Shown: piece after piece, positions 2,363-21,602 of the stretch
Layout: every line of letters starts with the position of its first letter
How positions within the stretch are numbered: position 1 is the stretch's first letter
Origin: a virus
DNA: 21,734 nucleotides
Strand: one strand, 5' to 3'
IMG/VR virus record: IMGVR_UViG_3300008116_000345
Span: 1-21,734 of that record
Position numbers and translations under genes: made by a program
Notes under the pieces: model-generated
Databases searched by the model: none
Told to the model about the DNA's origin: nothing
What the model saw: only the letters and a program-made list of their open reading frames with translations

Positions 2363-5300
2363 ATCTTAGAGAGCTGTTACAGTTATAGTTTCTGAGCCAC
2401 CACCAAGGAATACGGTGGCTACGATGTTACCAGAGTTTGTTGTGCTGTTGTTTGTCACAGTAGCCTTCGTGCCAGCGCTGCCATTTGAGTCAGCAAACAC
2501 AACATCAAAGTCATTTCCAGAATACGCACCAGTATCTACAATCTTGTTGTACACTGGCGAGCCTCCATATCCGTGAACGACCTCGTATGTTTTTGCCACT
2601 GAATAACCACTTGTGCTACACACAAAGGTAACCCTGAACGCTTGGGCTCCGTGGGAGTTTGATATACTAAAGAAGTCAGAGGTGGCTGATGTACCTACTG
2701 TCTTTGAGAACACATAGATGCCCGCCTGCTTATTCATATTCAGGCGGTCAACAGTTGCCGTTACTGTACTTCCGTTGTCTGTGATGGATGAGTTCGTAAT
2801 GGTATCCGTATCGCTCCACTTAGCAACGTAGTTAGCCGTACCGGTTCCGTCTACTCCTGTGATTTCAGAGAGGCTCACCCAGTCGGTGCCTGAGCCTGTA
2901 GAGCTCAGCACCTGCCCTGATGAGCCTGCTGAGTTGTTGGAGTCGTAGTAGGCTCCGGTTACCCGGATGTTGCCAGATACGTGAACACGTTGTGTTGGAC
3001 TATCAGTACCTACACCAAGATTTCCTACCGACCCAGCGCCAGATGGCATAAGAGAAAAGCTAGTGTTGGTATACCAAGTAGATACAGTAGCGCTTTGGTA
3101 AAACGCCATTACTTGCGTTCCATTGCCTATAGCAATGTCATTACCCGAATATCCACTCGAGCCCGTCGAGCCAATCTGAAGCTTATTATTTGGACTGGTT
3201 GTCAAAATACCTACATTGCCTCCAGCGGTAATGTTTATTACAGCATTTCCACCGTTGTAAAGTCTTAATTGGTTTGAAGCACCAACTAAGTACATACTAT
3301 TTACTATGTCAAGAGTTATTGCTTGACCTGCGTCTACTCTTATTTCTCCACCTGATACGTGCAATTTAGCCCCTGGGCTCGTCGTGCCAATACCGAAGTA
3401 GCCAGAGCTTGTGATTCGAACTGCTTCTGTTGTACCGGGAGAGAATATAAGATTGGTACTAGAGTATAAAGTAGTTCCATTAGAATCAACATTTAATGCT
3501 CCAGCTCTTGTTCCGTCACCAAAAGCTAAACCATTTCCAACGCTATATCCAGTTGAGCCTACGCTACCTATTTGCAATGCAGAAGCTGGACTCGTAGTAC
3601 CAATGCCGACGTTGCCGGCGCTGGTGATTCGCATACGTTCGGTACCGCTATTGTAAAACAATGTTGGTATTGCATCACCAGTATATAAGTATTGTCCAGT
3701 TGCGTTAATGCCAAACAATGCACTTCCTAATGTGCTTTGAGCTAGAAAATAAGCATCATCTGTATTGAATGTATTTCTAACTCTTACAGCAACCCCTGCC
3801 GCCGCTTGAACATCTAAACGATATGCTGGACTTGTAGTACCAATTCCTATGTTTCCTGCGCTATTGATGCGCATTCGTTCTCCTCCATTGGTCTGGAAGC
3901 CCATATAGTTATCACCGTGGTAATACCATATCTGACCAACATAGGTGTCAGCACCAGCCCCATCACCAAATAGAATGTATCCATATCCAGTGGTGGACGT
4001 TAGGATGTTTAATCCATTCTGAACGTCGGATGTATTACCTACTTGGAGCTTTGTGCCAGCATAACCAACAGTAGTTCCGCCAACGATAAGCTGTCCGCCT
4101 GTAGTAAGGCGCATCTTTTCGGTGGCTCCGTTTGTAGCAAACAATATCTCATTTGCTGCACGAATACCCAATTGATTTGCGGTACCACCAGATATTGATG
4201 TTCCAGAGCCAAATATTCCTGTGTCTCCATCATATCTATAGAAATTTGTTGTGGAAACGTTTGTGCTTCCGGCAACATCAAGCTTAGATGAAGGAGTAGC
4301 AGTCCCAATACCCACATTCGTTCCATTATCATAGATAATAGAATTAGTAATCGTATCAGTATCACTCCACTTGGTAACATAGTTCGCAGTACCGTTTCCG
4401 TCTACTGGTCCTGAGCCAATGGGTATCTCAATGACGTTACCGCTAGCGTCAACAGCAAGACGCTGGGTGGCGGTTCCGGTATTTGAACCGGAACCATAAG
4501 CATTTAGTTTGAGTGCTCCTACAGATGAAATACGCATTCGCTCTGAACCGTTGACATACATAGTCATTGGGTCGGAATCAGAGGCTATTCTTAGGTCTGT
4601 GCCGCCATTGGCTTGGATGTATCCACTTCTACCGGTTGCATTATACACAGATATGAATCCACTTGCAACGCCACCAAATCTTGACTCCGTACCTACAACG
4701 TGGATTTTAGCTCCAGGAGTCGCAGTGCCAATGCCGACGTTTCCAGTATTGTTTAACACTATGGCATTTGGGTCAGTAATTAAGCCAGTATTATAGCTGT
4801 TTACAATGTGAAGACTTGTGCTATTTGCCGGTGAACCAATGTGAGCAGAAGCTACACCGTCCTGCCACAAAAATAAACTCGTTGCTTGCCCACCATTATT
4901 TTGCAAAGAAAGCCCATTTGAGTATGACCCCCTTGATGTGGTCATAGTTCCAAATATACCAGTTCCAATAACATCAAGCTTAGTACTAGGACTCGTCGTC
5001 CCAATGCCTACGTTGCCATTTGACTCTACACGGAGACGTTCGGAACCGTTTGTATTAAACGTAATAGGATTAGCGCCTGATGCGTAAACATATAATCCAC
5101 CTACAGTACTAGTTATAGCACCAGCTCCACCACCGGCTCCAGTTAGATTAATTCTAGCTGTTCCAGCTGAAGTGGAGTCTATAATTAAAGTTGTTTCTCC
5201 GGAAGAAGATACGTGCAGTTTAGATGACGGACTCGTCGTGCCAATACCGACGTTAACGCTGAATATTGCTCTATCGCTTTTAAAGTAAACTGCGTTGGTA

Positions 5301-6353
5301 CCGTTACTGTAGAAGTACATAACGTCACCAGAGTCATATCCTCTAATATATGTTGAGCCACCATAATCGTATGCTCCAAAGAATAATGAACCTCCATCAG
5401 ATAATGTTACATCTCCAGAACCACCAACTATAAGCGCCTGGCCGGAACCATTTCCTACTCCATTATCAACCCTAATTTGCCCACTTACGTCTAACTTATA
5501 CGAAGGACTAGTAGTGCCAATACCAACGTTGCCTGAACTAGTTATTGACATAATGCTACTTCCGGCGGAGTAGCTATAGAAATCAAACCTGCTGTTGCCT
5601 CCAGCGTTTGTAAGGCCCCAGCTTGCATTTCCGTTATATCCATAAACCAAACTAGTCGTAGTGTTAGATGAATATGGATATAAGTAAAAAGTATTTGATA
5701 GTATTCCTACAGCATTAGAGCCACTACCACTACTTATTTGAACAGTAGTTGAAGCCCCAAAATAATCAGATGTCAGATTTAAGTATGTGGTTCCAGCTAC
5801 TGTAAGTTTCGCAGCCGGACTCGTGGTTCCAATGCCGACTTTTCCAAATGGGTCAATTACCATTCCGGTTGTGGCTCCACCAGCATTTGAATTGGTGCGA
5901 AAAACCAATCTACTATCCCAAGATGCGGCAGCTATTGAATCAATAAATGTTTCAATGTATGGGTAATTATACTCTGTTGAAATTCGACCATAGTATCCGG
6001 AACTACCTGCAAATGTTGTAACGGAATTTAAAAATCTTCCGTTTCCATTCACATCAAGTTTTTCACTTGGTGAAGTAGTTCCGATACCCACGTTGCCTGC
6101 GCTAGTGATGCGCATTCGTTCTGCCGTATCGGTGTAAAGCGTAATAAAGCCACCCCAGCTTGAGTTCCTTCCGTTTGAGATTCTAAATTCTCCAGTTTCA
6201 GGAAGCTGCTTTATCTCAGCATCAAGCGCACCACCATTTCGAAATTCAATTCCGTGAAACGATGAATTTAGAGATGATGAAATTCTAAAGATTGGAGTTG
6301 CTGAAGATACTTCTAAAATGGTGCCCGGACTCGCCGTACCAATACCTACTCGG
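88..6353 (-). repeat. Dispersed coding repeats of the NVGIGTTSP type (about 23 copies)
   Basis: On the minus strand the core reads close to AACGTCGGCATTGGNACG followed by ACGAGTCC, and it recurs at intervals of roughly 150-350 bases through both large fibre genes. I count ten copies in the left-edge gene and thirteen, including weaker ones such as NVGILTTSP and NLGVGTDSP, in the 1351-aa gene. Several copies are almost identical at DNA level, including silent positions, while others have drifted. The unit is protein-coding, not intergenic. Confidence 0.9.
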
Positions 6354-6421
6354 TTATTTACGTCATCAACAACCAGCGTATTGCTGTCTACGTTTACTCC
6401 TGATAAAAATCTCACGCTCAT
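2366..6421 (-). CDS. Tail fibre protein, 1351 aa, NVGIGTTSP repeats
   Basis: The ATG at 6421 overlaps the stop of the upstream HNH gene by ATGA. Residues 1-24 are a short leader, then thirteen repeat units near NVGIGTTSPxxKLDVxG run to about residue 1170, separated by variable beta-rich segments. A different spacer, DG(N/T)GTANYV(T/A)KWSDTDTITNS, occurs twice, near residues 670 and 1188. The last 130 or so residues carry no repeat; their alternating hydrophobic pattern suggests a folded beta tip ending in GGGSETITVTAL. By family this is a virion fibre or appendage, trimeric by analogy, with a C-terminal receptor-binding tip (inference). It is followed at 3 bases by a second repeat-built fibre gene. 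Composition is Ser/Gly/Thr/Asn-rich with almost no Cys. Confidence 0.88.
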   Translation of the reverse strand: MSVRFLSGVNVDSNTLVVDDVNNRVGIGTASPGTILEVSSATPIFRISSSLNSSFHGIEFRNGGALDAEIKQLPETGEFRISNGRNSSWGGFITLYTDTAERMRITSAGNVGIGTTSPSEKLDVNGNGRFLNSVTTFAGSSGYYGRISTEYNYPYIETFIDSIAAASWDSRLVFRTNSNAGGATTGMVIDPFGKVGIGTTSPAAKLTVAGTTYLNLTSDYFGASTTVQISSGSGSNAVGILSNTFYLYPYSSNTTTSLVYGYNGNASWGLTNAGGNSRFDFYSYSAGSSIMSITSSGNVGIGTTSPSYKLDVSGQIRVDNGVGNGSGQALIVGGSGDVTLSDGGSLFFGAYDYGGSTYIRGYDSGDVMYFYSNGTNAVYFKSDRAIFSVNVGIGTTSPSSKLHVSSSGETTLIIDSTSAGTARINLTGAGGGAGAITSTVGGLYVYASGANPITFNTNGSERLRVESNGNVGIGTTSPSTKLDVIGTGIFGTMTTSRGSYSNGLSLQNNGGQATSLFLWQDGVASAHIGSPANSTSLHIVNSYNTGLITDPNAIVLNNTGNVGIGTATPGAKIHVVGTESRFGGVASGFISVYNATGRSGYIQANGGTDLRIASDSDPMTMYVNGSERMRISSVGALKLNAYGSGSNTGTATQRLAVDASGNVIEIPIGSGPVDGNGTANYVTKWSDTDTITNSIIYDNGTNVGIGTATPSSKLDVAGSTNVSTTNFYRYDGDTGIFGSGTSISGGTANQLGIRAANEILFATNGATEKMRLTTGGQLIVGGTTVGYAGTKLQVGNTSDVQNGLNILTSTTGYGYILFGDGAGADTYVGQIWYYHGDNYMGFQTNGGERMRINSAGNIGIGTTSPAYRLDVQAAAGVAVRVRNTFNTDDAYFLAQSTLGSALFGINATGQYLYTGDAIPTLFYNSGTERMRITSAGNVGIGTTSPASALQIGSVGSTGYSVGNGLAFGDGTRAGALNVDSNGTTLYSSTNLIFSPGTTEAVRITSSGYFGIGTTSPGAKLHVSGGEIRVDAGQAITLDIVNSMYLVGASNQLRLYNGGNAVINITAGGNVGILTTSPNNKLQIGSTGSSGYSGNDIAIGNGTQVMAFYQSATVSTWYTNTSFSLMPSGAGSVGNLGVGTDSPTQRVHVSGNIRVTGAYYDSNNSAGSSGQVLSSTGSGTDWVSLSEITGVDGTGTANYVAKWSDTDTITNSSITDNGSTVTATVDRLNMNKQAGIYVFSKTVGTSATSDFFSISNSHGAQAFRVTFVCSTSGYSVAKTYEVVHGYGGSPVYNKIVDTGAYSGNDFDVVFADSNGSAGTKATVTNNSTTNSGNIVATVFLGGGSETITVTAL

Positions 6422-9410: not shown

Positions 9411-9418
9411 CAAAGTTA
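9411..9418 (-). promoter_or_regulatory. -7 box TAACTTTG overlapping the portal stop codon
   Basis: TAACTTTG fits TAnnTTTG; its TAA is the portal stop codon. The box ends 4 bases before the ATG at 9406, so a transcript from here would be leaderless or nearly so. No -33 TTG is seen. The geometry matches the box before the HNH gene. Confidence 0.45.
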
Positions 9419-11851
9419 AACATTCATTAGTGCTTCGCCTAGGTCGGGCTGCATGGCGCCCTCTTCCCCTTTGCGTTGTGCAATCAGCTTAGACTGCGCT
9501 TCTGCCTGCTTGTTGATACGAGCGTCCTTGCGGTTCTCCTTCATGTTGTCAAGGCTTTCTTGCGTCTGACCTTTGACCATCTGTGAGCCCACAACAGCTT
9601 CGTTCTTGAGCTTCTGAAGCTCCATGTCGTACTGGTGCTGCAGCTCCATGAGCTGCGCCTTGGCCTGGGTCTCAAGCTGAATCTTCTGAGCCTCAAGCTG
9701 AGCCTTCACCTGGTCTGCCTGCATCGTTGACTGAGCAGCTACCTGTGAAGCCTGAGCGTTGGCCTCAGCTTGGAACTGAGCCTGCTGCTGAGCCTCTTCC
9801 ATCCGCTGCTTCATGCGCTTCTTACGGCGCACCACAAGCAAGCGCTCTGCCTGCTCCGGGTCTCTTAGCTGTCGGATAGCAATCGCATCTTCAAGGTCAA
9901 TCTCCTTTTGAGAAAGGGCCATGTTGATGTTCTGCTCAAGGTAAATCTTAGAGCGGTCATCCATCTCTCCCATGACCACCACGCCGAAGTTGTACATCGA
10001 CAGGTTATCAAACGATGTTAGAACAGACATATTGGTCTCACCAATGGCGTTAGTGTATACCTTGTAGATGATGCTCTTTGGCGGAATGACCTGAAGGCAT
10101 CGTACGATGTCGTCGCATACCTTCTTGTAGAGTACCTGAGCAGCGTGCGTGATGTCGTAGGTAGCGTTGTTCGAAGCGGCGATAGCCTGCTCACGAACAC
10201 CAACCAATGCCTCCGACTTAGGAGTGCTGGCATCAACGACTTCGTTGATTCCCGTAGCGTCACGAATCATGCGCAGGTAGTGGTTGTACAAACCAATCAG
10301 CTGCTCTACGTTACGAATAGCGTTTCCGATTTCGCGCACAGGCGGGTTTTGGAACCCGCCCTCTGGATTCTTAGAGCGGTAGTAGAATACACCCGTCTGC
10401 TCATAGATGTCTTGAATCTCCAAAGGCTGGAGCTCACCACCACGACCGAGCTGTACGTTCTCCAGTCCTTCGATGTCGATGATAAGACCATCAGGCTTAG
10501 CCTTGGCGATAGACTGCTGAAGCTTCAGGTGCGTGATTTGAAGCATATCACCAAAGCCGATGATGCTTGACACCATTGACTTTGGAATCATGCCACGCAG
10601 GTTGGTGGCCACGCAAGAGTACGAAAGACGAGCACGAGCGATGTCGTGTACGTTCTTCGGGATGTTCTTCTGAACTCCGTAGTTGAACATGAAGTCTGTG
10701 CCCACAATGTAGATACCGCCGTAGACGGTGGCGTTCTTCATGTACACTGCCTCGCGGTCAAACACCGACTGCTGCGGAGCGTTGTAGGTGCTGCCCTTGT
10801 AGTAGAATCCTACGTTGCCAAACTTGGACTCCTTCTTCTCGAATACGATGTCGTCAACAGACATGAACTCAAAGTCCATAATCTGCACCTTGAACTCATC
10901 GTATCCGTAGCGGTAGCGATTGCTGATGGTCTCGTAGTTGTACCCTTGAGTGCTGTAGCGCAGCGGGTCGTTTCCGTAGCGGTTCATAACCGTCTGAGCA
11001 ATCTGCTGGTACTGCTCTTCCGTAAACTGATTGCCAGCCAAACGCTTGAGCTCCATGATGGTCACCGTGCGGAAGTGTCCAGCGTAGGTGAGGTCCGCCA
11101 TGTTGGGGTCATCCGTGTAGTTATGGATGAAATATGCAGGGTCTACATATTGCTCACGGATTCCGTAGTTAGGGTCGTTGGTACGCTTGGTAACAGCGAT
11201 ACCGCAGGTAACCAAGTCCTCCACGCAACGACGGTAGATGCCGTCGTCAAAGTCATTCCACGTGAGGGTCATCTCCGTGGCGAGCTGCGCAGCGATTTCT
11301 GCGTCAGTCTTGACGTTGGTGTCCAGGAAGATTTCCGTTTCCTCTGGGGTGTCGGGCAAAGCGTCCGGGTCTACCTTCAGCGAAAGACCAAGCGACTTAG
11401 CCTCCTGAAGCATCGACTTGTTTTCGATGCGCAGGACAGCTGAATTTTTCTTCTTGTCTTTCTCGGAACGAGACAATGGGTCAATAGCCTGTACCTGTGG
11501 GTACGGCTTACGAGAAAGAATCTTGTTTACTACGATGCGAACAAACTTCGGGATGATGGGCACTGGAGTATAGTCCAGCGTAAGCATCGTTCCGTCACCG
11601 TTGTTTGCATCAAGAGAACTTAGGATTTGTCGGTAGATTGACGTATCCTGAGTACCCTGTGCGTAGTCGCGGTTGTTCTGCATCTCATTGAACCGACGAC
11701 CGTAAAGTGAATTGTTGTAGTCAACGCCAATCCACTGTGCATACATGGCCTTGGCATATTGAAGGCCATAGCCTTTTGCCATTTTTTCCTCCGTACTCGC
11801 TAACGGGTCGGGGAATGTAGACTGGCCTTTTGCTGTATAATCTCTTTGCAT
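9416..11851 (-). CDS. Portal protein, about 811 aa, with long Gln/Ala-rich coiled tail
   Basis: The portal is the dodecameric channel through which TerL pumps DNA into the head. Several stretches fit a portal core: YTPVPIIPKFVRIVVNKIL (about residues 94-112); a segment near 205-270 with YRRCVEDLVTCGIAV, REQYVDPAYFI and an ATIMEL-like stretch; and REIGNAIRNVEQLIGLYNHY before a helix-rich region. From about residue 660 the chain becomes a charged Gln/Ala-rich coiled coil (RRKKRMKQRMEEAQQQAQ onward), as in portals of several Bacteroidota podovirus-like phages. The gene directly follows TerL, which supports the call. I chose ATG 11851; a GTG two codons upstream (11857) is possible. Length is large for a portal but within the range seen in such phages. 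Confidence 0.82.
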   Translation of the reverse strand: MQRDYTAKGQSTFPDPLASTEEKMAKGYGLQYAKAMYAQWIGVDYNNSLYGRRFNEMQNNRDYAQGTQDTSIYRQILSSLDANNGDGTMLTLDYTPVPIIPKFVRIVVNKILSRKPYPQVQAIDPLSRSEKDKKKNSAVLRIENKSMLQEAKSLGLSLKVDPDALPDTPEETEIFLDTNVKTDAEIAAQLATEMTLTWNDFDDGIYRRCVEDLVTCGIAVTKRTNDPNYGIREQYVDPAYFIHNYTDDPNMADLTYAGHFRTVTIMELKRLAGNQFTEEQYQQIAQTVMNRYGNDPLRYSTQGYNYETISNRYRYGYDEFKVQIMDFEFMSVDDIVFEKKESKFGNVGFYYKGSTYNAPQQSVFDREAVYMKNATVYGGIYIVGTDFMFNYGVQKNIPKNVHDIARARLSYSCVATNLRGMIPKSMVSSIIGFGDMLQITHLKLQQSIAKAKPDGLIIDIEGLENVQLGRGGELQPLEIQDIYEQTGVFYYRSKNPEGGFQNPPVREIGNAIRNVEQLIGLYNHYLRMIRDATGINEVVDASTPKSEALVGVREQAIAASNNATYDITHAAQVLYKKVCDDIVRCLQVIPPKSIIYKVYTNAIGETNMSVLTSFDNLSMYNFGVVVMGEMDDRSKIYLEQNINMALSQKEIDLEDAIAIRQLRDPEQAERLLVVRRKKRMKQRMEEAQQQAQFQAEANAQASQVAAQSTMQADQVKAQLEAQKIQLETQAKAQLMELQHQYDMELQKLKNEAVVGSQMVKGQTQESLDNMKENRKDARINKQAEAQSKLIAQRKGEEGAMQPDLGEALMNV

Positions 11852-11871
11852 ATCCACTGCGGGCTAATATG

Positions 11872-11879
11872 CAAATATA
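11872..11879 (-). promoter_or_regulatory. -7 box TATATTTG before the portal gene
   Basis: On the minus strand TATATTTG lies in the 38-base gap between the TerL stop and the portal ATG. The predicted leader is about 11-17 bases, depending on GTG or ATG start. No -33 TTG is present. It may be an internal late promoter. Confidence 0.4.
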
Positions 11880-11889
11880 CTTATTTGAT

Positions 11890-13986
11890 TCAGCGTAAGA
11901 TGACGCGACCCGGACGAAAAAACTTTTTCACGTTAAAGTCGGTTTTTTCTTTCTTTGCCGTCGCTCCTTGCGCTGCCAAAAGCGCAAGTCCGCTGGAGAT
12001 TGACAAGTCAAAAGCGGTACGGTCATCGACCTTGAAGTTAATCCAATCCTCTAATGTCCTCTCAAAGTACATCTTACCAAATTGCAGCGTCTCTTCGTTA
12101 AGGCCTACGTGTGCATGGATGTATGCTTCGATTGCCTGTGCGTGAGCCTGAATAATGTCTTGTGAGTTTGACGGAATACCCTTTGTTTTTGTCGTGCTGC
12201 CGTAGCCTGAGCTTAGGTGCTCAGGCCTACCCATCAGATAATGGTCGTATCCACGCTGTTCAAAATAGCGAGCAATTCCATATTTGTTGTTCTCAATAAG
12301 AAGGCTGTAGCCGTAGAACTTTGCAGCCATCAGCACATCCTCGTAGAATATTTTGGCGAGAGGCGGACGTGATGCGTACTCCGCCACAAACATATTGGCT
12401 GGGTACTGCAGGTTGAACTTATTGTAAATATGGCAGGCGCCCTTTGAGCTCCTTGCGTCAACAGTTACGTCAATGTCGTAGGAGTCAACGCCTCCTACTC
12501 CTAGCCAATCATTCTGAGGACCTTGCTTGTTTCTGAGCTCATGCGGCGGCATCCATACCACGCGCCATCTCCCGTTTGGGTCTGGCTTGAAATACACCTC
12601 CGTATCTTGCTTTCCATCCTTCCAAACGAAGTTCCCAACGAGCACAGGATTTGGGTACAGTTCTTGATTGTGCTGGATTTGCTCGTATATCTTCTGCACG
12701 TTGAAGAGCGACGCCTTAGAGCTGTCGCGAAACGCTTCTGCTGTGGTGAATGGGAACTGACGTATGACCTCGTTGAGTTCGTAGCTGTCGTTTGCCAGCG
12801 CTTTACGCTCGTTCTTTAGGAATGTGCGTGCTCCGATGGTAATCTTCTCTCCGTCTATACCAAAAACTGGTACCTCTGGGTCATCAACAATGGGCTGACC
12901 GTATTTGTCAAAGAATCCTTCCAGTGCTTCGTATGCTGGTATGAAAATTGAGTACAATCCGCTCTTGGTGCGTCCGTTTTCGTTGCGCTCCGCTGGGTTG
13001 CTGGCTTCATACAGGTCTCTGAACTGTCGGCCGCCGCGGTCAAGCGGGTTTACCGTAGAACCAACGATGGCCTTTCCTACAATCTTACGACCAACGAGCA
13101 GACAGGTGCGGTGAATGCGCCACGATTCACGGATGTCGGTAGGCTTTTCCCACTTGCCGGCCTCATCTAAGTACAGGACGTGCAGCTTTTCACCGTCATA
13201 GGCGTTGTTGGTGGTGTTCTTCCAGTTGACTACCGTGTTGAGGGCCTCGCCGCGCTGCGATGTCTTGTTGGTCTTGGTGATTCGCTTCGATGGCTCGCGG
13301 AAGGCGAGCTCCATCCGTGGGTTGGTGGTACCATCCTGGATTGGCTTGAAGAAAAACGGCAGTGATTTGTAGATGGGGACTATCTTCTTCATGAAGATGT
13401 TCTCCTGTGCGTCGCTACCTGTCTTTGACATCACACCCAACAGCCTCTCTTTCACCTGAGTAGCCTCGTTGATGATGGTAGAGGCGCTCATGTTGGTATA
13501 TCCAGAGCGTCGGCACTTGACGTACACCTGCCCTAGAGACCTCGGGTCTACATTGCAGGCTTCAAGATGTATGAATAGCTCTCGCTGGAACCCAAGGTAG
13601 GACGGGTAACCCACGTCAATCTTGGCCCATTGCAGAAAAAAGTAGTGGTTTCCGGTGATGTAAGTAGGTACTCCGTTGTTGAAGAACCATAGTCCGGTGC
13701 GTCTGCGCTCATACTCTTGTTGGATGTAGTTGGTGTATTTCTTTCTAAAGGATTCAGGCATAGTCATCCACTCCTCCATTGAGTTGATGCGACGAAGCTC
13801 GTCAGGCATCTCCTGACGCGCCCACATCTGCTGCTCTTTAGGCTTATCGTGGAATAAGATGTCTTGCTTTCTTGGTTGCTTGGGAAGCTGGATGGCTAGG
13901 TCTCCATAGGTAACAACGTCCCCGGCCGTTCCTCGCGGACAGATGTTGACGATTACCTCGTCTTCTATTTCGACTAATCCAGCCAT
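11890..13986 (-). CDS. terL: Terminase large subunit (TerL), 698 aa
   Basis: TerL is the ATP-driven motor and nuclease that packages and cuts phage DNA. Residues 155-164 (YVKCRRSGYT) sit where a Walker A variant is expected. LHVLYLDEAGKW (268-279) is a clear Walker B with Asp274-Glu275, and GSTVNP (309-314) fits the coupling motif. The nuclease half shows GVGGVDSYDID (497-506, Asp501), FVAEYASRP (533-541, Glu536) and VDDRTAFDLSISSGLALL (653-670), the usual order of the three RNase H-fold acidic sites. The length is typical of TerL proteins of large Bacteroidota phages. The gene starts at ATG 13986 and is followed by the portal gene. No classical small terminase is recognised nearby; the 98-aa helical protein just upstream is one candidate. 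Confidence 0.92.
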   Translation of the reverse strand: MAGLVEIEDEVIVNICPRGTAGDVVTYGDLAIQLPKQPRKQDILFHDKPKEQQMWARQEMPDELRRINSMEEWMTMPESFRKKYTNYIQQEYERRRTGLWFFNNGVPTYITGNHYFFLQWAKIDVGYPSYLGFQRELFIHLEACNVDPRSLGQVYVKCRRSGYTNMSASTIINEATQVKERLLGVMSKTGSDAQENIFMKKIVPIYKSLPFFFKPIQDGTTNPRMELAFREPSKRITKTNKTSQRGEALNTVVNWKNTTNNAYDGEKLHVLYLDEAGKWEKPTDIRESWRIHRTCLLVGRKIVGKAIVGSTVNPLDRGGRQFRDLYEASNPAERNENGRTKSGLYSIFIPAYEALEGFFDKYGQPIVDDPEVPVFGIDGEKITIGARTFLKNERKALANDSYELNEVIRQFPFTTAEAFRDSSKASLFNVQKIYEQIQHNQELYPNPVLVGNFVWKDGKQDTEVYFKPDPNGRWRVVWMPPHELRNKQGPQNDWLGVGGVDSYDIDVTVDARSSKGACHIYNKFNLQYPANMFVAEYASRPPLAKIFYEDVLMAAKFYGYSLLIENNKYGIARYFEQRGYDHYLMGRPEHLSSGYGSTTKTKGIPSNSQDIIQAHAQAIEAYIHAHVGLNEETLQFGKMYFERTLEDWINFKVDDRTAFDLSISSGLALLAAQGATAKKEKTDFNVKKFFRPGRVILR

Positions 13987-17480: not shown

Positions 17481-17698
17481 TACTTCTTTGCTCTGTTGCG
17501 AGAGGCCGGAATCATCCGGCGCTCGTCGTGGTCATAGTCTTCACCGTCTCCGTTACCGTAGGTTCCGGCATCACGGTTCTTCTTATTTAGGAACGCACGG
17601 TATTTCTTGCGCTCTTTGGTTGAGTGATACTCGGTATCGTATTCAGCCTTCTTAGCGCGAGCCTTTGCGTTGCTAGCGTAGTACTTACTAGTCTTCAC
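17480..17698 (-). CDS. Small basic phage protein, 72 aa
   Basis: GTG 17698 is the only reasonable start and overlaps the preceding gene by 11 bases; no ATG occurs until late in the frame. Residues 1-40 are Lys/Arg/Tyr-rich (KTSKYYASNAKARAKKAEYD, STKERKKYRAFLNKKNRDA). The end reads DGEDYDHDERRMIPASRNRA. Proteins with a basic KAEYD...R-KKR helix followed by a Gly/Asp segment and an S-x-N-R closing box are common small unknowns in aquatic phages. No function is assigned. Confidence 0.65.
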   Translation of the reverse strand: MKTSKYYASNAKARAKKAEYDTEYHSTKERKKYRAFLNKKNRDAGTYGNGDGEDYDHDERRMIPASRNRAKK

Positions 17699-17873
17699 TT
17701 TCGGAGTAGTAGCAAGCTTTGATTTTGTAGTGGGCCGGGGCCATACCTGTTGCCTTAACGGCTGCCTGTACTTGCTTGACGGCCATCATCAGGTCGGGGT
17801 TCATGACCTCGATTTCCTGCTCTGACTCCATCTCGCCCCCTTCGTTGTAGGACTTAACTCGATACTTTTTCAT
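17688..17873 (-). CDS. Small protein with MKKYR...YxxGG N-terminus, 61 aa
   Basis: ATG 17873 gives MKKYRVKSYNEGGEMESEQE, followed by a helix (DLMMAVKQVQAAVKATG) and HYKIKACYYSESED. The MKKYR start and YNEGG motif recur in the 78-aa protein at 18442-18678 and, partly, in the 198-aa protein. It is the first gene of the small-gene chain and has a -7 box 19 bases upstream. Function unknown; the shared N-terminus hints at a shared partner or processing. Confidence 0.65.
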   Translation of the reverse strand: MKKYRVKSYNEGGEMESEQEIEVMNPDLMMAVKQVQAAVKATGMAPAHYKIKACYYSESED

Positions 17874-17948: not shown

Positions 17949-17978
17949 TTGCACAATTCAAAACTTTATCTACATTTG
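17949..17978 (+). promoter_or_regulatory. Full Bacteroidota-type promoter TTG-N19-TACATTTG
   Basis: TTG at 17949-17951 and TACATTTG at 17971-17978 are separated by 19 bases, the established spacing for the Bacteroidota primary sigma factor. The predicted start is near 17982, giving a leader of about 28 A-rich bases before the ATG at 18010. It is the only complete match in the window. Confidence 0.75.
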
Positions 17979-18009
17979 TACTACAATTAACTAAAAATTG
18001 ATACCAACT

Positions 18010-18378
18010 ATGAAAACCAACCTCCCCCTTCTCGCTGCCGCTGGCACCACTGTTCTTGCCTTTGGCCTGTACCTTCACTTTAGCCGTCCTTACTTTGAGG
18101 ATACGCCTTCTCGAATCGAGAACATGGAATGCACTCCGTACCAAGGTGTATGGTATGATGCTGAAATCGGAGACTCTGTAGTTTGTACTTTATGGGAGTT
18201 CAAGCCTTCTCAGCTTTCTGAACTAAGTGAAATCATCAGCGAGAGCGACACCACATGGTCATTTTCAAATGAGGAAGGAAAGCACACAGTATACTGGAGT
18301 AAGGACATCACCGTGCAGACATTGCACAAGGCCGATACCTTAAACAACATCATGGTATACTGGTCAGAGCAGTTCTAG
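18010..18378 (+). CDS. Membrane-anchored hypothetical protein, 122 aa (moron-like)
   Basis: ATG 18010 gives MKTNLPLLAAAGTTVLAFGL as the N-terminus. Residues 5-23 form one hydrophobic segment, either a membrane anchor or an uncleaved signal. The rest is a soluble domain rich in Trp and acidic residues (YQGVWYDAEIGDSVVCTLWE, EGKHTVYWSKDI, NIMVYWSEQF) with Cys41 and Cys59, which could pair if exported. The gene stands alone, facing opposite to both neighbours, with a consensus promoter and a strong terminator. That is the layout of phage morons. Possible roles are superinfection exclusion, a lysis accessory or envelope change; none is shown by the sequence. It lies about 1 kb from the endolysin gene. 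Confidence 0.72.
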   Translation: MKTNLPLLAAAGTTVLAFGLYLHFSRPYFEDTPSRIENMECTPYQGVWYDAEIGDSVVCTLWEFKPSQLSELSEIISESDTTWSFSNEEGKHTVYWSKDITVQTLHKADTLNNIMVYWSEQF

Positions 18379-18401
18379 TAGAAACGTCTATAAACAAGAA
18401 T

Positions 18402-18430
18402 AGGGGGCTTATGGCCCCCTTTTTCTTTTA
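18402..18430 (+). terminator. Rho-independent terminator after the membrane-anchored gene
   Basis: AGGGGGC (18402-18408) and GCCCCCT (18414-18420) make a 7-bp stem with loop TTATG, followed by TTTTCTTTTA. This is a textbook strong terminator on the plus strand, 23 bases after the stop. On the minus strand the downstream bases are less T-rich. Confidence 0.85.
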
Positions 18431-18441
18431 GTAGCTGTTGA

Positions 18442-18678
18442 TTAGCGCAGTGAACGCTTCAGGGCTCCGAGGAGTTCCTTGGGCACTCCGGCAACGGCTT
18501 CACCAACTTGCTTAGCGGCTCCCATGTAGTCACCTTTCTTAAGGGCAATTCCGAGGCGCTCGCCTTCGGTCATGTACTTACCTGTTGGCTTCTTGGCTCC
18601 GGTAGCTTTAGCTGCGGGCTTGGTAGGAACAGTCTTACCTCCGTTTTGGTATTTCTTGGCGGTGCGGTACTTTTTCAT
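18442..18678 (-). CDS. Small basic protein with MKKYR...YQNGG N-terminus, 78 aa
   Basis: ATG 18678 gives MKKYRTAKKYQNGGKTVPTK, a Lys/Pro/Ala-rich linker (AAKATGAKKPTGKYM) and an amphipathic helix region, ERLGIALKKGDYMGAAKQVG followed by EAVAGVPKELLGALKRSLR. The N-terminus matches that of the 61-aa protein at 17688-17873. A -7 box lies 18 bases upstream. The product is strongly basic and may be a minor virion or nucleic-acid-binding protein, by charge only. Confidence 0.65.
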   Translation of the reverse strand: MKKYRTAKKYQNGGKTVPTKPAAKATGAKKPTGKYMTEGERLGIALKKGDYMGAAKQVGEAVAGVPKELLGALKRSLR

Positions 18679-18696: not shown

Positions 18697-18704
18697 CAAA
18701 TATA
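18697..18704 (-). promoter_or_regulatory. -7 box TATATTTG for the 78-aa protein gene
   Basis: TATATTTG on the minus strand fits TAnnTTTG, 18 bases before the ATG at 18678, in the 35-base gap after the 198-aa gene. No -33 TTG is found. Confidence 0.45.
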
Positions 18705-18713
18705 TAGTTGTTG

Positions 18714-19310
18714 TTACTTGTTTTTTGGGCTTACGCCGGTGAAGTACATCATGGCTTGGCGCAGGGCTTCCATTTGCTTCTTCGTTGACGGGCTCATGTC
18801 AACAGCGTTAGAGATGTAGCTGTTGTTGTCTTTGGTGTTCTTCATCACACCGCCTTTGGCCATCTTCTTGACTGGGCGCTTGGCCACCATCATGCCTTTA
18901 GCCTTGAGGCTGCGGTCGAATGCTGCAACGGCGTCCGGGTCGGAACTCTTGAGCTGATTGCGCATCTCGGTGAGGTTTTGCATCTCGCGTGCCTTGGCGT
19001 TGCGGTTGAAGGTAGCCTCGGCGTTCTTGAGCTTCATGGCGTCGGCTGCTGCTTCAAGCTTGCGGCGCTCGGGAGCGATTACGCGTCCGTTGCGGTCAAG
19101 CACGTCGGTAATCTTACGAGGTGGTACTTGCTTCTTTTTGCCGCCCATCATTCCTCCGTTTTGGTACATCATGCCCAGCTTACCGCCGCCCATCATGTAT
19201 CCCATTTTGTTACGCACTTCCGTGGGAAGCTTAGACAGTCCAGTCTGGCTGGGCTGTACTGGTTTCAGCGAGCCTCCTTTGGCGTAGCTGGGTTTCTTTG
19301 GGGTTTTCAT
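18714..19310 (-). CDS. Basic, Gly/Met-rich protein, 198 aa, with YxxGG motifs
   Basis: ATG 19310 gives MKTPKKPSYAKGGSLKPVQP. A TTG seven codons upstream (19331) is possible and would leave a short leader like those of other genes here. The region near residues 36-60 is full of Gly and Met (KMGYMMGGGKLGMMYQNGGM). The middle (about 66-140) is a charged helix with ERRKLEAAADAMKLKNAEAT. KKMAKGGVMKNTK follows, and the end is STKKQMEALRQAMMYFTGVS. YAKGG, YQNGG and MAKGG echo the neighbouring small proteins. Lys/Met/Gly-rich proteins of this kind recur in metagenomic phages and may be virion internal or minor proteins. No domain is recognised. Confidence 0.65.
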   Translation of the reverse strand: MKTPKKPSYAKGGSLKPVQPSQTGLSKLPTEVRNKMGYMMGGGKLGMMYQNGGMMGGKKKQVPPRKITDVLDRNGRVIAPERRKLEAAADAMKLKNAEATFNRNAKAREMQNLTEMRNQLKSSDPDAVAAFDRSLKAKGMMVAKRPVKKMAKGGVMKNTKDNNSYISNAVDMSPSTKKQMEALRQAMMYFTGVSPKNK

Positions 19311-19387: not shown

Positions 19388-19528
19388 ATGGCTGGTAAGA
19401 CAGGTAAGTTACAAGCTGTTGCAAAGTTTGTAAGCAAGAGCAAGAAGCGCGGAAAGCACTCTAAGAAGGCTTCTAATAACAAAGGCTCTAAGAACTATTC
19501 CAAACCCTATAACGCACAAGGACGATGA
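19388..19528 (+). CDS. Very small, very basic protein overlapping the endolysin gene, 46 aa
   Basis: ATG 19388 to TGA 19528 gives MAGKTGKLQAVAKFVSKSKK, then RGKHSKKASNNKGSKNYSKP and YNAQGR. About a third of residues are Lys or Arg; there is no membrane segment. The stop overlaps the endolysin start as ATGA, so the two are likely co-translated. No promoter with a full match is seen upstream; TAGTTTTA at 19356-19363 is one base short of a -7 box. It resembles the basic small proteins on the other strand in composition. It is not a holin by its sequence; function unknown. Confidence 0.65.
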   Translation: MAGKTGKLQAVAKFVSKSKKRGKHSKKASNNKGSKNYSKPYNAQGR

Positions 19529-20139
19529 GCTTGAAATCACTACAGGAAAAGATTGGTGTAACACCTGACGGGGCGTTTGGTCCTGGCACCATCAAGGCAG
19601 CGGCAAAGCATTACGGATTGAGTCCAGAGCGCGCTGCTCACTTCTTCGGACAGACCGCGCATGAGACGGGTGGCTTCAAGGCATTCTCAGAGAACCTCAA
19701 CTACTCGGCTAAGGGATTGCTTGGCATCTTCAAGAAGTACTTCCCGACGGAGGCTTTGGCTAAGGAGTACGAGCGCAAGCCGGAAAAGATTGCTAACCGC
19801 GTGTATGCTTCACGCATGGGCAACGGTGATGAGGCATCAGGAGATGGATGGAAGTACCGTGGTCGTGGGGCACTGCAATTGACGGGCAAGGCAAACTACG
19901 AGGCCTTTGCTAAGTGGCTGGGTAAGCCTGAGCTGTTGGAGAAGCCAGATGCTGTTGCTACTGAGTTTGCTTTTGATAGTGCTCGGTTCTTCTTTGATAG
20001 GAACAAGTTGTGGGACATCTGCGACAAGGGCGTTACGGACGAAACCATCCTTGCTCTCACGAAGCGGGTGAATGGCGGCACGCACGGTCTTGATGACCGC
20101 GCTAGCCGCACCAAGCAGTACTACAGCTGGTTGAAATAA
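19525..20139 (+). CDS. GH19-family endolysin (chitinase-like lysozyme), 204 aa
   Basis: The enzyme likely cleaves peptidoglycan sugar bonds to release phage progeny. Residues 2-32 (SLKSLQEKIGVTPDGAFGPG onward) look like a shortened peptidoglycan-binding helix set. The catalytic core follows: HFFGQTAHETGGFKAFSENL (39-58) holds the conserved His46-Glu47 and a second acid, Glu56. YRGRGALQLTGKANYEAFAK (111-130) is the GH19 signature block, and KRVNGGTHGLDDR (180-192) closes the cleft. There is no signal peptide, so a holin or similar is needed for export; none is certain in the window. The start overlaps the stop of the 46-aa gene (ATGA). Length is normal for phage GH19 lysins. Confidence 0.93.
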   Translation: MSLKSLQEKIGVTPDGAFGPGTIKAAAKHYGLSPERAAHFFGQTAHETGGFKAFSENLNYSAKGLLGIFKKYFPTEALAKEYERKPEKIANRVYASRMGNGDEASGDGWKYRGRGALQLTGKANYEAFAKWLGKPELLEKPDAVATEFAFDSARFFFDRNKLWDICDKGVTDETILALTKRVNGGTHGLDDRASRTKQYYSWLK

Positions 20140-20212: not shown

Positions 20213-20740
20213 TTATGCAAATATAGGGTTTTTCATATTTAGCATATCTGTTGTTTTCAGCCTGGCCCATCGGTGTGTTATCCATAGGTATTTTGGCTTT
20301 TCCCTGAAGTTTGGGTTCTTGTTGTTTTCGTAGTATTCCGTTAGGCCTTTTGAGTTGCCCCCTACGTTGACCCATTTGTTGAATGCATCTACTCCAACAC
20401 CTGCTGCTTTTGCTGCTGACCTAACGCCTACGTAGATGAGTTTCGTCTGCAGGTCCACGTATATGTACTTAGCTCCTCCGTTTCCTCCTTTGCTGATGTT
20501 GTACATCTTCTGTCCCTTGTGTGCATCAATCCATAGTATCTCAAGCTCGTTGAGCTTCTCTATGGTCTCTGCCCAGCATACCAGCTCGGTGATGAAGTTG
20601 TCCCAGCCGTGTTCCTCTAGTGCTTGCCTGAATATGCTACCTGAGCCGCGGTACTTGCGGTCAAAGAAACTGCATTGATGCTGTCCGATGTAGACGAAGC
20701 CGTTTACCTTATTGGTAGTCTTGTAGATGTAACCAACCAT
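20213..20740 (-). CDS. GIY-YIG homing endonuclease, 175 aa
   Basis: ATG 20740 starts MVGYIYKTTNKVNGFVYIGQ, with the GYI (3-5) and YIG (17-19) halves of the GIY-YIG motif. An Arg-rich stretch (RKYRGSGSIFRQALEEHG) follows, then NELEILWIDAH (64-74) with the likely metal-binding Glu67, and YNISKGGNGG (80-89) with the conserved Asn81. Residues 94-125 (VDLQTKLIYVGVRSAAKAAG onward) resemble a NUMOD1-type DNA-binding helix. The organisation is that of free-standing segD-like phage enzymes, which cut intron- or gene-less alleles to spread themselves. It is convergent with the endolysin gene and has a -7 box 22 bases upstream. Confidence 0.92.
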   Translation of the reverse strand: MVGYIYKTTNKVNGFVYIGQHQCSFFDRKYRGSGSIFRQALEEHGWDNFITELVCWAETIEKLNELEILWIDAHKGQKMYNISKGGNGGAKYIYVDLQTKLIYVGVRSAAKAAGVGVDAFNKWVNVGGNSKGLTEYYENNKNPNFREKPKYLWITHRWARLKTTDMLNMKNPIFA

Positions 20741-20762: not shown

Positions 20763-20770
20763 CAAATATA
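20763..20770 (-). promoter_or_regulatory. -7 box TATATTTG for the GIY-YIG gene
   Basis: TATATTTG on the minus strand fits TAnnTTTG, 22 bases before the ATG at 20740. No -33 TTG is seen. Confidence 0.45.
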
Positions 20771-21194
20771 GTGAATGGATGGAACTCGTTACATAAACTT
20801 ATCTACAATCTTGTTTTCGGTGAACTTAGTTCGGGTTTTGTGAACTAACTTCGCTTAAGCCGAAGGACACCGCGGTAGCACACCCGACATCGCCGACGCA
20901 CTAGCGTCGCCCCTGTCTCAAAACAGGGGCAGAGCAACGAAGGGCACCACGAACGAAGGACTCTGGTACCACTACGCCAGACCACATCAGCGCTACACCG
21001 CAGTAGCACACAGCAAAGAACAACAATACAGGCGCACTATGCTCTGACGTGAGCAGTGGCAATGTGATAGACATGAATTATCTGATTCACAGATACTTAC
21101 GTTGTTTTGTCAAACATATTGAATCCCCCTTTCCTTTTCTCTTTTTTTTCGTCATGTAGCACCAATGCGGTCAATGACAGCTATATTCACGTCC
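20771..21194. other. Non-coding stretch with clustered hairpins and imperfect repeats
   Basis: No frame longer than about 28 codons from an ATG is credible here. The stretch holds a run of inverted repeats: TTAGTTC/GAACTAA (20826-20848), CTTCG/CGAAG around 20849-20865, CGACGC/GCGTCG (20894-20909), GCCCCTGT/ACAGGGGC (20909-20930) and TCTGG/CCAGA (20962-20981). CACCGCGGTAGCACAC at 20868-20883 returns as CACCGCAGTAGCACAC at 20996-21011, one mismatch in 16. CGAAGG(A/G)C occurs three times. A 27-base pure pyrimidine run lies at 21124-21150. The middle is clearly more GC-rich than the flanks. It could be a structured RNA, an origin or a packaging site; none is proven. Confidence 0.5.
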
Positions 21195-21602
21195 ATGAAA
21201 CGCTGTCCTGGCTGCGCTACCCTAAAGCCACTCACAGAGTTCTCCAAGAACAAACGCAAATCAGACGGCCTACAGTCGTCCTGCAAAAGCTGTTCTGCCC
21301 AACGCTCAGCCTCATGGTATGCATCCAACAGCCATACCCGCGTAGCACAGAACAAATCCCAACGTGACCGAAACAGAGCATTCGTAGACCGCTACAAACG
21401 CCTTCACGGTAAATGCACAGACTGCGGTACAACCGACCATCGCGTTCTCCAGTTCGACCACCTGTCCGACAAAAAGAACGACGTCTCATCCATGATTTAC
21501 TGCGGCAACTCCATCAAAGTAATCAAAGCCGAAATACGCAAATGCGAAATCCGCTGTGCCAATTGTCATACAATCATAACAGCTGAACGTCGCTCCAAAT
21601 GA
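21195..21602 (+). CDS. HNH endonuclease with N-terminal zinc finger, 135 aa
   Basis: I chose ATG 21195 (MKRCPGCATLKPLTEFSKNK) over upstream ATGs at 21165 and 21174 because it aligns exactly with the N-terminus of the other HNH protein here. Cys4, Cys7, Cys30 and Cys33 form a zinc finger. The nuclease core has CTDCGTT (74-80), LQFDHLSDKKNDV (85-97) with Asp88-His89, and RCANCHTIIT (120-129) with Cys121, Cys124 and His125, a classical C-x2-C...DH...C-x2-C-H HNH with structural zinc. It is probably a free-standing homing endonuclease. No clear promoter was found in the non-coding stretch upstream. Confidence 0.9.
   Translation: MKRCPGCATLKPLTEFSKNKRKSDGLQSSCKSCSAQRSASWYASNSHTRVAQNKSQRDRNRAFVDRYKRLHGKCTDCGTTDHRVLQFDHLSDKKNDVSSMIYCGNSIKVIKAEIRKCEIRCANCHTIITAERRSK

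Follow-up and report, generated by a model that had tools for sequence, protein, structure and literature searches.

A co-exchanged two-gene cassette encoding a candidate superinfection-exclusion protein in phages of probable Flavobacteriia-like hosts

Genes for superinfection exclusion are, to our knowledge, known mainly from phages of Enterobacteria. A different kind of phage product is represented by the internal proteins of T4, which are packaged and ejected and in which a conserved targeting sequence precedes a variable body. In phages T5 and BF23 the same exclusion role is played by unrelated Llp proteins, the genes of which adjoin different receptor-binding proteins (PMC4728585), and Spackle of T4 binds a basic patch in the Spackle-gp5 complex (PMC7677548). 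The locus described here lies in a 21.7 kb virus record, the whole of which was analysed and is called the window below (Table 1). It comprises a gene for a small envelope-type protein, hereafter the payload, and a convergent gene for a small basic protein, the partner, both occurring in several types (A to D and A' to D', respectively).

By analogy, Llp of T5 and BF23 appears to be the closest functional parallel. As in oad/hrs-llp, a small exported protein would be made in the infected cell, its gene lies beside a late gene, both genes are swapped jointly and no sequence similarity links the different exported types (PMC4728585; PMC9586334). Llp, however, is a lipoprotein, whereas a lipobox Cys was found at the leader end in none of the payload types A to D, and the partner is small and basic instead of being a receptor-binding protein. 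Moreover, the fibre genes are unchanged with payload type in a near-identical pair of phages (G005, type A, and G006, type B; the only pair compared), their fibre regions being mostly 85–97% identical despite the swapped module. Like Spackle, the payload would be made early, act in the periplasm and exclude related phages, the acidic side of the contact being the exclusion protein and the basic side a protein of the virion (PMC7677548). Nevertheless, no sequence relation to Spackle was found in Pfam, PHROG, NCBIfam or PDB sequences, the target of Spackle is a lysozyme domain while the partner is no recognisable enzyme, and the predicted payload fold is beta-beta-alpha-beta4. Since the lipobox, a receptor-binding partner and homology are all lacking, the payload was filed under neither Llp nor Spackle. 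The partner resembles the T4 internal proteins in its conserved N-terminal tag followed by exchangeable basic bodies, although its packaging is putative here.

Table 1. Features of the locus and of its surroundings in the window
Feature	Position	Strand	Remarks
Tail fibre	2366-6421	-	
Portal	9416-11857	-	
Terminase	11890-13986	-	
Gene upstream of payload	17688-17873	-	
Bacteroidota sigma-A-type promoter	17949..17978	+	TTG-N19-TACATTTG, 32 nt before ATG; pattern match
Payload gene, type C	18010..18378	+	122 aa; membrane-anchored at the N-terminus, outer domain acidic and beta-rich (predicted); ATG 18010, stop 18378
Conserved leader/anchor segment	18010..18072	+	Left border of swapped segment; from identity of L004 to window and of L011 to L008
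Intrinsic terminator	18402..18420	+	Hairpin then T-tract; -20.7 kcal/mol, z -3.2
Convergent partner gene, type C'	18442..18678	-	78 aa; basic (pI 10.3); MKKYR..GG N-terminal tag
Codons for conserved N-terminal tag	18637..18678	-	MKKYRTAKKYQNGG; right border of swapped segment
-7-like box of partner gene	18697..18704	-	TATATTTG, without -33 TTG; candidate late promoter
GH19 endolysin	19525-20136	+	

The phage group to which the window belongs is known so far from metagenomes only. The best cultured-phage match of the terminase (47%) is in a spring-water record, and the terminases of Flavobacterium 'elemo' and Cellulophaga phages are near 40% to it; judged from these matches, a Flavobacteriia-like host is likely, though not proven. 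Neither an integrase (PF00589) nor a resolvase (PF00239) was detected in seven related records of 30–66 kb, which may be incomplete, and the phage is therefore likely to be virulent. This bears on the suggestion of the initial annotation that the payload gene is a moron, of which only a part stood; that the product is exported was likewise supported. Similarly to phage morons, the gene has an independent promoter and terminator, as far as sequence signals tell, an orientation opposite to its neighbours and a patchy distribution; unlike them, it travels with a second gene and in a phage with no detected integrase or resolvase. Given that these were not found in records of up to 66 kb, it is probably not a moron in the strict sense of lysogenic conversion, and carriage by a temperate phage with expression from a prophage does not appear to apply to it.

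The payload gene is real. It is read from the + strand between two - strand genes, and the orientation opposite to both neighbours, the single N-terminal membrane segment and the Trp- and acid-rich product with two Cys, all described in the initial annotation, were confirmed: the hydrophobic segment spans about residues 5–24, there are five Trp and the mature pI is about 4.3. The Cys pair is not conserved, for the homologue in L167 has no Cys at all and that in L004 lacks Cys59. By inspection, the hydrophobic segment of type C looks like an uncleaved anchor, and a signal peptide that ends in ..Q is present in types A, B and D. Payloads B, C and D have a pI of 4.3–5.0, and payload A, at 8.8, is not acidic. 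Within types the dN/dS of the mature part is 0.13–0.28 (0.51 in the distant pair of the window and L167), and these low values within types indicate purifying selection and payloads that are working genes.

The same payload gene is found in two relatives (L002 and L003), and homologues of type C were identified in L003, L004 and L167. Between L004 and the window the flank is 86–100% and the leader 96–100% identical, after which DNA identity drops to 56–83%. Other close relatives (L007, L008, L010 and L011) carry different exported proteins of 105–108 aa in the same place and orientation, and further payloads occupy the slot in L167, L169/L175 and L176. When the mature parts were compared by BLASTP, four types could be delineated, namely A, B, C (window, L003 and L167) and D (L176), with no matches between types except one at chance level (E 0.5). 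In four more distant relatives (L138, L144, L153 and L158) the slot is empty, the flanking genes directly adjoin each other and a search of the rest of these loci gave no payload of any of the four types. Presence is hence patchy, the slot being fixed in close relatives and empty in the four distant ones and, judged by this distribution, the payload gene is an accessory cassette. Two further features were seen in the relatives: a gene resembling DNA cytosine methyltransferases (L010, 6442-7614) adjoins the slot where g61 would be expected, and a further variable cluster with small exported and holin-like genes (L235, 1785-2968, in G003) differs between G005 (type A) and G003 (type B).

No other full match to this promoter pattern exists in the window, as the initial annotation had pointed out. 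A lone site is in itself unremarkable, because 22 of 100 shuffled windows also hold at least one such match. Its box agrees with the -7 consensus of flavobacterial sigma A, TAnnTTTG (PMC9723704), and the TTG lies 19 nt upstream. What makes the promoter convincing is the conservation of its architecture: TTG-N18-21-TAnnnTTG precedes all slot genes, 53–67 nt upstream of the payload ATG, and was found in seven out of seven independent slot upstream sequences (chance per sequence 0.1–4.7%) compared to none of the 18 other window genes checked, within 120 nt. The strong hairpin with a T-tract reported after the stop was likewise recovered (Table 1), and almost all relatives have a GGGGGC..GCCCCC-T(n) hairpin 3' of the slot gene. 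In one 4.8 kb contig (L002) about 45 nt after the payload stop, including the terminator, are missing and the C-terminus of the partner is altered, which is either a deletion or an assembly error.

Several - strand genes, including the partner, have the TAnnTTTG box alone 12–30 nt before their start. The host-type promoter on the payload and the TAnnTTTG-only box on the partner point to differing expression programmes, and suggest that host polymerase would read the payload, and a different programme, active later, the partner. In the window there are 22 TANNTTTG sites (13.9 expected in all, on both strands), 20 of them on the - strand, with examples at 18697-18704, 11872-11879 and 20763-20770; several lie 12–30 nt before late gene starts and have no -33 TTG, and these boxes may serve as late promoters of the phage, recognised with another factor.

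The payload gene had been considered to stand alone. Instead, it forms a convergent two-gene module with the partner gene, the role of which had been missed, and the two are swapped together. In each of 13 distinct pairs the body type of the partner (pI 9.7–10.4 across types) agrees with that of the payload (four A, five B, three C and one D); since type D is represented once only and some of the pairs are closely related, independent support comes mainly from A, B and C. The borders of the exchange are best seen between L011 (type A) and L008 (type B), which are about 95–100% identical on both sides of the module: counted from the payload ATG, it drops from about +60 and is restored near +830, so that one border coincides with the leader end and the other with the tag codons of the partner, as in L176 and L169. 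On a larger scale, G006 (B) and G005 (A) are 97–98.6% identical over most of about 38 kb, and the module is one of four replaced segments. Taken from these alignments, the payload and partner genes are a two-gene cassette exchanged as a unit among related flavobacterial-type phages.

The main rival to an exclusion function is that the partner is transferred passively with an accessory envelope protein, which would act on a host target, either a receptor or entry factor, as Llp of T5 does, or some other host function, the crossovers being confined to the conserved flanks. We regard this as rather unlikely, though it is the strongest of the rivals. Inside the module, types A and B lack any homology that would allow a crossover between the two genes, so that close relatives can exchange both only jointly and the co-swapping could be passive. 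To a degree, variation of the partner alone within a type supports this as well: the window and L003 share a 100% identical payload and a partner of 67% aa identity. On the other hand, L132 and L215 have A-A' pairs that are placed differently with respect to the conserved genes, and a B-B' pair is present in L213, with no window homologue within 6 kb, and nothing at such non-syntenic sites in distant phages would force both genes to stay. Although no window protein matches the 12 kb of L213, it is a distant relative and not an unrelated phage, because the rest of its contig encodes a portal of 61% identity. As for a receptor target, the largely unchanged fibre region of G005 and G006 alongside different payloads shows no link to receptor choice.

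The statement of the initial annotation that no known family is recognised was borne out for payload C, for which searches in Pfam, NCBIfam and PADLOC gave no match. PHROGs (E>0.08 only) and PDB sequences yielded nothing significant, and designed 'Cake' repeat proteins among the PDB matches were dropped, as no stretch passed. The payload matched no PADLOC profile of known anti-phage defence proteins and no profile of the lysis families (spanin, holin, antiholin). In cultured phages no match was found for payloads C and B or for partners B' and C', and payload A had chance matches only, inside a mycobacteriophage terminase (E 0.7–1). Types C and B were not found in GTDB contigs of bacterial genomes. 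Profile-profile comparison among the types restricted relatedness to the leaders of A and B (5–8% probability for C versus A or B), which leaves shared ancestry of the mature domains unsupported despite the same order of elements in the models of B (pLDDT 80) and C (pLDDT 62), both predicted as beta-beta-alpha-beta4, with the first strands of C poorly predicted. Structure searches with the two models gave no significant match. The periplasmic lipoprotein DcrB was among the top two PDB matches of both (E 0.03–0.09, TM about 0.3, not significant); this similarity of both folded types, weak and not significant as it is, would favour a host target, but because of the scores DcrB was rejected as a structural relative and retained as a lead only.

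The small exported or anchored payload and a GH19 endolysin 1.1 kb downstream on the same strand might also suggest a lysis accessory, i.e., a spanin subunit, an antiholin or a lysis-inhibition protein. This is very improbable and the least probable of the readings: the payload gene has its own terminator, followed by the partner and another - strand gene before the endolysin, the empty slot in relatives already weakens the idea, the lipobox or coiled coil typical of spanins was not seen, and in G003 holin-like and exported proteins belong to another variable cluster at a different location.

The anatomy of the cassette is well supported, and from it we infer its function. The swap pattern supports, at the sequence level, what is expected of an exclusion factor or another envelope-acting factor. 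As no integrase or resolvase was found, a factor useful in lytic infection is likelier than one of lysogenic conversion, and for an early, envelope-located, lineage-typed protein in such a phage superinfection exclusion is the best explanation. We therefore favour, with a rough probability of 0.42, an early, envelope-located superinfection-exclusion payload with a type-matched late partner as a virion or ejected protein. In its favour are the type matching, the sharp swap borders in a near-identical background, the A-A' and B-B' pairs at other sites in distant phages, the host-type promoter on the payload alone, the purifying selection within types, the parallel with Llp of T5 and BF23 and the combination of acidic payload and basic partner in types B, C and D, as in the Spackle-gp5 complex. 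Against it count the possibly passive co-swapping, the partner varying alone within a type, the non-acidic payload A and the lack of a significant fold match. The payload would be transcribed from the host-type promoter, which makes expression early in infection probable, and would be placed in the cell envelope by its signal peptide (A, B and D) or uncleaved-looking anchor (C). In the periplasm it may then block genome entry of a second, related phage. The partner, a small basic protein encoded among late genes, would be a putative virion or ejected protein, and the exclusion protein might recognise the partner type of its own lineage directly or via a shared host target.

A stricter version, in which the early envelope protein specifically recognises the cognate basic protein, which bears the tag and is packaged in the virion or ejected, and by which phages exclude their own type and diversify via two-gene swaps between the leader and tag borders, is unlikely. 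The opposite charges of acidic payload and basic partner in types B, C and D are only suggestive of binding between the payload and a virion protein. The partner changing alone within a type (also in L169 and L213, with 82% payload and 47% partner identity) argues against a tight lock and key. 

If the pairing is functional, an exclusion group would be changed in one recombination step. Pairs of near-identical phages in which one has module A and the other B are a natural experiment, for which homotypic, not heterotypic, exclusion is predicted, and the candidate cassette is compact, typed and testable in Bacteroidota phages.

Alternatively, the two proteins could be a toxin-immunity or toxin-antitoxin-like pair, in which the basic partner (type C' has amphipathic GxxLG..KKGDYxGA repeats) would damage membranes or competitors and the envelope protein would shield the cell that makes it. 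Type-matched basic and (mostly) acidic proteins, polymorphic types and convergent adjacent genes would be in line with this. We consider it improbable nonetheless, as the tag motif is common to other late-cluster genes, such as that upstream of the payload, which have no immunity gene, no toxin family match was obtained and the four partner types resemble low-complexity basic proteins, unlike known toxins.

The tag is part of a wider motif, K-K-Y-x-x-G-G, which is N-terminal or repeated in several small basic late proteins of the window (17688-17873, 18442-18678 and 18714-19310) and of L138, L153 and L215, and which might be a packaging or assembly tag. Comparison of the partner genes of the window (18442-18678) and L003 (10436-10672), where in a nearly identical background the body alone differs, reveals a hotspot within the module. 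Downstream of the endolysin the window encodes a GIY-YIG homing endonuclease (20213-20740, PHROG match) and an ORF with a zinc-finger/HNH-like Cys pattern (21165-21602). In the 66 kb contig of L003 (G001) the start of the fibre gene is present at both ends, at 1634 and 63973, hence this contig is terminally redundant and the genome is probably about 62.3 kb in size.
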